Source of the DNA: Chloroflexota bacterium
GTDB taxonomy: Bacteria; Chloroflexota; Anaerolineae; J036; Brachytrichaceae
Direction: 5' to 3'
NCBI GenBank assembly: GCA_021788625.1
Contig: JAJYKL010000006.1
Span: 1-64,000, forward strand
DNA: 64,000 nt
A program made the translations under genes and the position numbers. The notes under the pieces are model-generated. The model ran no database searches, was not told the origin of the DNA, and saw nothing but the letters and a program-made list of their open reading frames with translations. This document shows positions 1-1,533 of this stretch, in pieces. Numbering within the stretch: the stretch's first letter is position 1; each line of letters opens with the position of its first letter.

Positions 1-9
1 TGACGCAAT

Positions 10-245
10 TTATCCACAATTGCTCCGGCTTATCCCCAGAAAGCATTCGACTTGTCCACAGGCCGTGATGGTTATGTATGATAGTCATTTTACTTAACCT
101 TATTTTAAGCTTATCCTAATCTTCACTTTCTCCAATATATAGCCGCAGCTCACGATACGCCCCTATATCTTGGATCAAAAAAGACGAGCAGAACTAGCAT
201 GGATCGAGAGCTACATGTGAATAAGTTGTGGACAACTGTGGATAG
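10..245. other. oriC: DnaA-box cluster, candidate chromosomal origin (oriC)
   Basis: At least six DnaA-box-like 9-mers lie in about 235 bp. On the plus strand are TTATCCACA (10-18, perfect), TTATCCCCA (30-38) and TTGTCCACA (52-60). On the minus strand are TTATTCACA (216-224), TTGTCCACA (227-235) and CTATCCACA (237-245). The two groups flank an AT-rich stretch at about 80-140 that could serve as an unwinding element. Two opposed box groups around an AT-rich core is the usual bacterial oriC design. No dnaA or dnaN gene is in the window, so a flanking dnaA would have to lie upstream of base 1. A DnaA-regulated promoter is the main alternative. Confidence 0.6.
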
Positions 246-1533
246 TTTGTGGCAGATTGTGAGCTACAGCTTTCACGAGGTGTTGCCCAAGTTTCTGCTT
301 ATGGCCGTGGTGCTCTGCCTGGTAACGTCTGACGTAGCACAAACATACGGCCGCGAGGCGGTGCTGGACCGCATGTTGGCTGGCAAAGAATACGACTTCA
401 TCAGTTGGGAAACACGGACAGCACTGGCCAAGATCGGCATCGAGCTGACTGCACCACAGAATGGCATGAGTCTTGCTGACCAGGTGTCTTTCGTGCGCAG
501 ATTTATGCAACGGGTGGCCGACGAACAAAATCTGGAAGGCCAGATCAGCCAGTTGTACACGGACCCAACGGTGAAAGATCCCCTCTCTGCGAGCGCTCAA
601 CTACGCAGACAACGCGATGCGCTGCGTGCTCAGATCGCCGTGCGACAAAATCTGGCAGAGGCAATCCTGCAGGAGCAGGTCGAAAGCGTCCTCGCCGAAG
701 AAGGTTTTGCCGTGGGCGGACAGGTCATACCACCCCTGCGTTTCCGCTTCACTCCACTACCCTATGTGCTGATCATCTCGCGGCGCGACAAGATCGAGCG
801 CATCGATCAGCGCGAACTGATCCCTGGACTCACGGTGGATCAGTTCGGCCCGATTGAGGATGCGGTGGATAAACGGTTCAACGTATCCTCTCTGATAACT
901 CCAATCGGTGGGCTGAGCGCGTACCCTACCATGCTGCCTGAGTCCTCATCGCTTGACTTTACCATCGAGACGGAAGCACACGAGTGGACGCACAACTTCC
1001 TCTACTTCAGCTACGTCGGTTTGCATTATGACGACGACCCGGTGGCGCGCGAAATAAACGAGACGACGGCGGTCATCGTGCAGCACGAGATCGGCCAGCG
1101 GGTCCTGCAGCGCTATTACCCCGATTTGGTGCCACCACCCGCACCGCCGCAACCTGCAACGCCGCCAGCGGAGACCACACCGCCCATCAACCGGCCGCCC
1201 GAGTTCGATTTCAATGCGGAGATGCGCCTGACGCGTGTCCACGTGGATCAATTGCTGGCATCCGGCCAGATCACCCAGGCCGAGTCATACATGGACGCAC
1301 GCCGCATTGTCTTTGTGCAGCACGGCTATGAGATCCGAAAACTCAACCAGGCCTATTTCGCCTTCTATGGAGCGTACAACGCCCAACCAGGCGGATCGCC
1401 CGAAGCCGGCAACGATCCCGTTGGCCCGGCTGTGCAGGCACTGCGCAAGCACTCCGCCTCGCTGGGCGATTTCGTGCGCGCTATTGCCACCGTCCACTCC
1501 CTGGCCGACGTGCGGCGCCTGACACGACAATAG
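199..1533 (+). CDS. Membrane-anchored zinc metallopeptidase-like protein
   Basis: Unrecognised family with metallopeptidase hallmarks. A hydrophobic segment near residues 30-47 looks like an N-terminal anchor or signal. About residue 262 there is an HEWTH motif (HExxH zinc-binding type), followed some 27 residues later by an INETTA stretch that could supply a third ligand, as in gluzincins. A proline-rich linker follows, then a helical C-terminal domain. The first 15 codons overlap three DnaA boxes, so the true start may be further in, for example the ATG at 301, which would leave a short signal-like N-terminus. Function and substrate are unknown. The protease reading rests on the HExxH motif alone. 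Confidence 0.65.
   Translation: MDRELHVNKLWTTVDSLWQIVSYSFHEVLPKFLLMAVVLCLVTSDVAQTYGREAVLDRMLAGKEYDFISWETRTALAKIGIELTAPQNGMSLADQVSFVRRFMQRVADEQNLEGQISQLYTDPTVKDPLSASAQLRRQRDALRAQIAVRQNLAEAILQEQVESVLAEEGFAVGGQVIPPLRFRFTPLPYVLIISRRDKIERIDQRELIPGLTVDQFGPIEDAVDKRFNVSSLITPIGGLSAYPTMLPESSSLDFTIETEAHEWTHNFLYFSYVGLHYDDDPVAREINETTAVIVQHEIGQRVLQRYYPDLVPPPAPPQPATPPAETTPPINRPPEFDFNAEMRLTRVHVDQLLASGQITQAESYMDARRIVFVQHGYEIRKLNQAYFAFYGAYNAQPGGSPEAGNDPVGPAVQALRKHSASLGDFVRAIATVHSLADVRRLTRQ

Follow-up and report, generated by a model that had tools for sequence, protein, structure and literature searches.

Does the cluster of DnaA boxes at the very start of this contig mark a chromosomal replication origin, and if so, why is no dnaA gene found beside it? 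We analyzed a stretch of 64,000 nucleotides (the window) that forms the start of contig C148 of the host genome G000 (4.50 Mb, 204 contigs, 92% complete). A first-pass annotation had proposed a replication origin at 10-245. Based on comparisons with relatives and with other families of the class, we consider it very probable (roughly 0.85) that 10-245 is either the whole chromosomal oriC of this uncultured Chloroflexota bacterium or the core of it that binds DnaA and unwinds.

Positions 10-245 contain six DnaA boxes, three at 10-60 and three facing the other way at 216-245, compared with 0.09 boxes expected in 236 bp according to shuffles of the window itself (P ~7e-10). The left-hand group, on the plus strand, consists of TTATCCACA at 10-18, a perfect E. 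coli box, TTATCCCCA at 30-38 and TTGTCCACA at 52-60, which together form an ordered triple with start-to-start distances of 20 and 22 bp. The right-hand group, on the minus strand, comprises TTATTCACA at 216-224, an exact match to the degenerate consensus TTATNCACA, a further TTGTCCACA at 227-235, and CTATCCACA at 237-245, where several relatives also keep a box. Between the two groups, positions 72-131 form an AT-rich core of 25% GC, a candidate unwinding element. This is the lowest-GC 60-mer of the window, which is 61% GC overall, and 0.06% of the window's 60-mers are equally low. Averaged over the family origins, AT content is highest between +60 and +100, counted from the start of the triple, and has another maximum immediately behind the triple. 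Two hallmarks of an oriC, a box cluster beyond chance and an AT-rich candidate unwinding region beside the boxes, are thus found here, and the first-pass description of six boxes around an AT-rich core, one of them perfect, was borne out.

The cluster was also correctly placed at the window start, but base 1 is the end of a contig (G000:C148:1), that is, an assembly edge. Contig C89 of the same genome (6,770 bp, L036) carries a copy of window 1-307 in reverse orientation and then runs on upstream. The overlap contains two substitutions, at window positions 114 and 228, the second of which breaks the box at 227-235 in C89. Positions 300-750 of C89 hold an apparent decayed 3' end of pdhA (pyruvate dehydrogenase E1-alpha); relatives have an intact copy of this gene next to the origin. 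The name pdhA is our own reading of the protein, not the outcome of a family search. Because the genome is fragmented and incomplete, a rival box cluster could be missing from it. No second tandem box pair of the searched forms was found in G000.

We searched 298 genomes of the class for the exact pattern TTATCCMCA-N11-TTATCCMCA-N13-TTRTCCACA, with the reversed pattern as a control. The exact triple was present in 25 genomes, once in each except for the contig overlap in G000, and the reversed pattern matched none of the 298. Estimated from base composition, the chance expectation is ~6e-10 per genome. A scan of viral contigs gave 8 matches. Every exact triple in the host family (f1), in genera g1, g4, g5, g7 and g8, is located upstream of the same flanking gene. 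Boxes at the flanking-gene loci of relatives occupy the matching place with equal spacing, and genus g6 has a looser box group at the origin locus. On the other side of the origin, intact pdhA is found in g1, g6, g7 and g8. Outside f1, box groups upstream of the flanking gene are mostly missing, and its neighbor is not pdhA. Within the family, the candidate origin is single-copy and conserved in position among relatives, with the exception of g2 and g3. Some g1 and g8 genomes have a further box ~128-130 bp behind the triple; it falls within the coding region of pdhA, and we took it to be a chance occurrence. An apparent g2 box triple (L337, L367) inside a substrate-binding-protein gene was seen and left out of the evidence.

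Two g3 genomes (G006 and G013) and G017 of g2 have denser clusters, with about ten or more boxes, at other loci, so the origin may have moved again in these three genomes. The g3 clusters, of about ten boxes each (L345, G013:C51; L346, G006:C44), are situated between translin-like and ornithine-cyclodeaminase-like genes, and g3 also has a copy of the flanking gene without boxes. In g2, locus L336 (G017:C398) contains ~15 boxes over 550 bp and is a candidate origin of that genus.

The first-pass annotation had expected dnaA and dnaN just upstream of base 1. This expectation failed, with dnaA on a separate contig (C82) in the host and, in the complete genome of a relative (G023), at 4.02 Mb, 673 kb from the triple at 3.35 Mb. 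The host family does not have the adjacency to dnaA that characterizes dnaA-linked origins, and no box group follows dnaA in any of 25 f1 genomes. By contrast, we could read 22 dnaA loci from other families, and at 10 of them, representing nine Anaerolineae families, a triple with 20 plus 21/22 spacing follows directly, within ~150 bp of the dnaA stop codon; one of the ten has 21/21 spacing, and four of the ten genomes were picked for having the exact pattern and six were not. At several loci outside f1, the C-terminal codons of DnaA come after the triple. Because the triple adjoins dnaA elsewhere and no boxes follow dnaA in the 25 f1 genomes, origin and dnaA appear to have become separated in f1. 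Most simply, an ancestral origin linked to dnaA would have had its DnaA-binding part separated from that gene, with the box module kept; these data cannot tell whether it was dnaA or the origin that moved. The AT-rich side differs between the family origins and the dnaA-linked origins. In family f35, a 20/22 triple (L106, G200:C118:16528-16578) is also found off dnaA, which is on contig C98, possibly through an independent separation. Conservation of the triple at one locus within the host family, and beside dnaA in other families, supports the proposed origin.

GC skew was examined in three genomes. In G023, 60 of 61 samples were used (20 kb each, one of 16 kb; one masked), and in G019 we used 320 of the 323 kb of contig C5, for both of which GC, TA and gene-corrected fourfold-site skews were calculated. 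In G263, raw skew was taken from 21 samples. Amplitudes were weak (~0.01-0.02), and there was no usable switch in G023, G019 C5 or G263. Cumulative skew in G023 had two near-equal minima, at ~3.1 and 4.27 Mb, neither of them at the cluster (3.35 Mb); on the cumulative GC range, the cluster was located at the 7% level and dnaA at the 9% level. A clean switch was likewise lacking in G263, whose triple adjoins dnaA. The skew is so weak that it argues neither for nor against an origin here. DnaA-trios, in runs 0-16 bp from a box, were not conserved among relatives, and a run of eight trios left of the right-hand boxes was present in the host species only.

Given that skew does not put an origin at 10-245, the boxes might instead constitute a DnaA-regulated promoter that controls the adjacent zinc-peptidase-like gene, with the true origin elsewhere, for example near dnaA. 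The right-hand boxes overlap the start of this gene in most genera, and boxes are also found at other promoters of the family, in the gap between ftsA and ftsZ and, in G007 and G017, in groups upstream of dnaA. However, other families keep the order and spacing of the triple next to dnaA and not next to this gene, whose orthologues outside the host family are mostly free of boxes. Moreover, the triple is at least ~140 bp upstream of the gene, and the AT-rich core intervenes. We therefore consider a promoter function in place of an origin very unlikely. The box pair between ftsA and ftsZ is itself conserved (G023:C1:3583425-3583454, L370; also L339, L353 and L342), and in g5 and g7 the boxes flank a TTGACA-like hexamer before ftsZ, which suggests that DnaA may control ftsZ.

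The flanking gene (199-1533, plus strand) is predicted to encode a membrane-anchored protein of 444 aa with a HEWTH zinc-peptidase-like motif, for which there was no sequence match in Pfam, NCBIfam or PDB. This HEWTH protein is widespread in Anaerolineae, with 474 confirmed stretches in genome contigs. As the first-pass annotation had stated, three boxes lie within the first codons: the right-hand boxes fall in the first 16 codons of ORF 199-1533, and TTATTCACA overlaps a GTG at 217. The reading frame common to the family has V[NK]xLW beginning at the codon that corresponds to GTG 217. The apparent ATG start of g5 is within a box (ATGTGGATAA), whereas in g8 and g4 the boxes are upstream of the gene without overlap. 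These different layouts, together with the family reading frame, indicate that overlap is common but not required and make ATG 199 doubtful; the start is likely to be GTG 217, or just after it. The earlier doubt about the start codon is therefore shared by the relatives, which disfavor ATG 199, but boxes still overlap the beginning of the frame. Similarly, the earlier view that the origin reaches into the gene agrees with the box overlap in most genera, but not with g8 and g4.

The AT-rich core contains three direct repeats with a period of 11 bp, CTTAACCT-tat-TTTAAGCT-tat-CCTAATCT (93-122, plus strand), the units of which occupy 93-100, 104-111 and 115-122, respectively. An alignment of family origins (from which the G022 slice was left out) contains CTTAAC-like repeats at a fixed distance after the triple. 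Because of the repeat spacing, we suspected a site of the OmpR/PhoB type. Such a repeat would be expected to mark phosphate genes of the family as well. A search of seven genomes gave six exact copies of the motif: at three origins, in two pstB-phoU operons and at one pstS (pst and phoU gene names are our own reading of the ORFs). Upstream of pstS-like genes, TTAAC-N6-TTAAC scored at least 9/10 in 16 of 20 regions; with other spacers, 0-3 of the 20 regions reached this score, except for a spacer of 5 (six regions). When a matrix based on pstS regions only was applied to the 64-kb window, the four best matches were all in the origin core. A spacer of 6 was also the best among 17 family origins (mean score 8.18; next best 7.29), 11 of which scored at least 8/10 at +84 to +86 from the start of the triple. 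The tandem 8-mers, the 3-bp linkers and the match to the family's pst motif are the features of a Pho box. They suggest that a phosphate-responsive regulator may bind the unwinding region or drive the adjacent gene; the candidate Pho site may act for the origin, for the flanking gene's promoter, or for the two together.

It is quite possible, if at somewhat less than even odds, that the 11-bp repeats are mere AT-rich unwinding sequence, or a feature for single-strand binding by DnaA, and not a Pho site. Unwinding elements are AT-rich and often repeated, and AT-richness inflates matrix scores: 12 of 1000 locally shuffled cores (1.2%) equaled the score of the core. In addition, the second half of the motif is ATAAC in g7, a weaker match. 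The spacing, however, is that of the family's own pstS upstream regions, and the other exact copies in the seven genomes searched are only at pst/phoU genes. Alternatively, the Pho-like site might be real and yet be a promoter element of the flanking gene, which would then belong to the Pho regulon, with no role in replication. The repeats precede the candidate starts by 77-95 bp, as is usual for Pho boxes, and are followed by a TATATA at 136-141, both of which would agree with this. By contrast, 89 upstream regions of flanking-gene orthologues that have no origin exhibited no preference for the Pho spacing, and the distance from repeats to triple is nearly fixed whereas that from repeats to start varies, and we place this alternative on the unlikely side. 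With none of these 89 regions reaching 9/10 at a spacer of 6, we rejected the idea that the Pho motif is an old feature of the flanking gene. A direct effect on replication, in which phosphate starvation would block or time initiation through a PhoB/SphR-type site in the unwinding core, is a tentative proposal that we consider unlikely.

If 10-245 is the origin, DnaA would bind the triple as an ordered array and oligomerize into the AT-rich core, with the opposed boxes helping, and the core would be opened for helicase loading. With less confidence, a PhoB/SphR-type regulator positioned on the 11-bp repeats could link phosphate supply to initiation or to the flanking gene's expression.

In conclusion, we name here a probable origin in a group that lacks cultured genetics and has a weak GC skew, and in which skew-based origin finders and estimates of replication rate are unreliable. 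The 20/22 box triple provides a signature for finding origins across Anaerolineae, and the host family is an apparent case in which origin and dnaA have parted with the box array retained. The Pho box, if real, would tie phosphate sensing directly to the start of replication, a possibility that can be tested and that concerns slow, nutrient-limited bacteria. By comparison with the dnaA-linked oriC of other Anaerolineae families and of most bacteria, the candidate host origin shares the order of the boxes, their equal or nearly equal spacing, nearby AT-rich DNA and presence in a single copy. It differs in its location off dnaA, between pdhA and the peptidase-like gene, and in the opposed boxes on the other side of the array. 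Like the E. coli-type oriC, it is a single origin away from dnaA, but its flanking genes are different, its box array is that of its class, and it is predicted from sequence. Regulators such as CtrA, MtrA and Spo0A act at other origins, and the CtrA site is TTAA-N7-TTAA (PMC4285127). The layout of that site is the same as at 94-108 of the host, and the origins bound by CtrA (Caulobacter Cori) and MtrA (mycobacteria) share with the host direct repeats of helical-turn period inside the origin. The host motif differs from these in being the pstS motif of the family, which points to a possible Pho regulator; a Pho site at the origin, if true, would be analogous to CtrA and MtrA but would involve a Pho regulator. 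We found no report of a Pho box within an oriC in our literature search. The Pho box bound by cyanobacterial SphR consists of three copies of the 8-mer CTTAACCT with 3-bp linkers (PMC1906773). The host repeats include the identical 8-mer and have linkers of the same length and the same copy number, in this case apparently within the core of a presumed replication origin.
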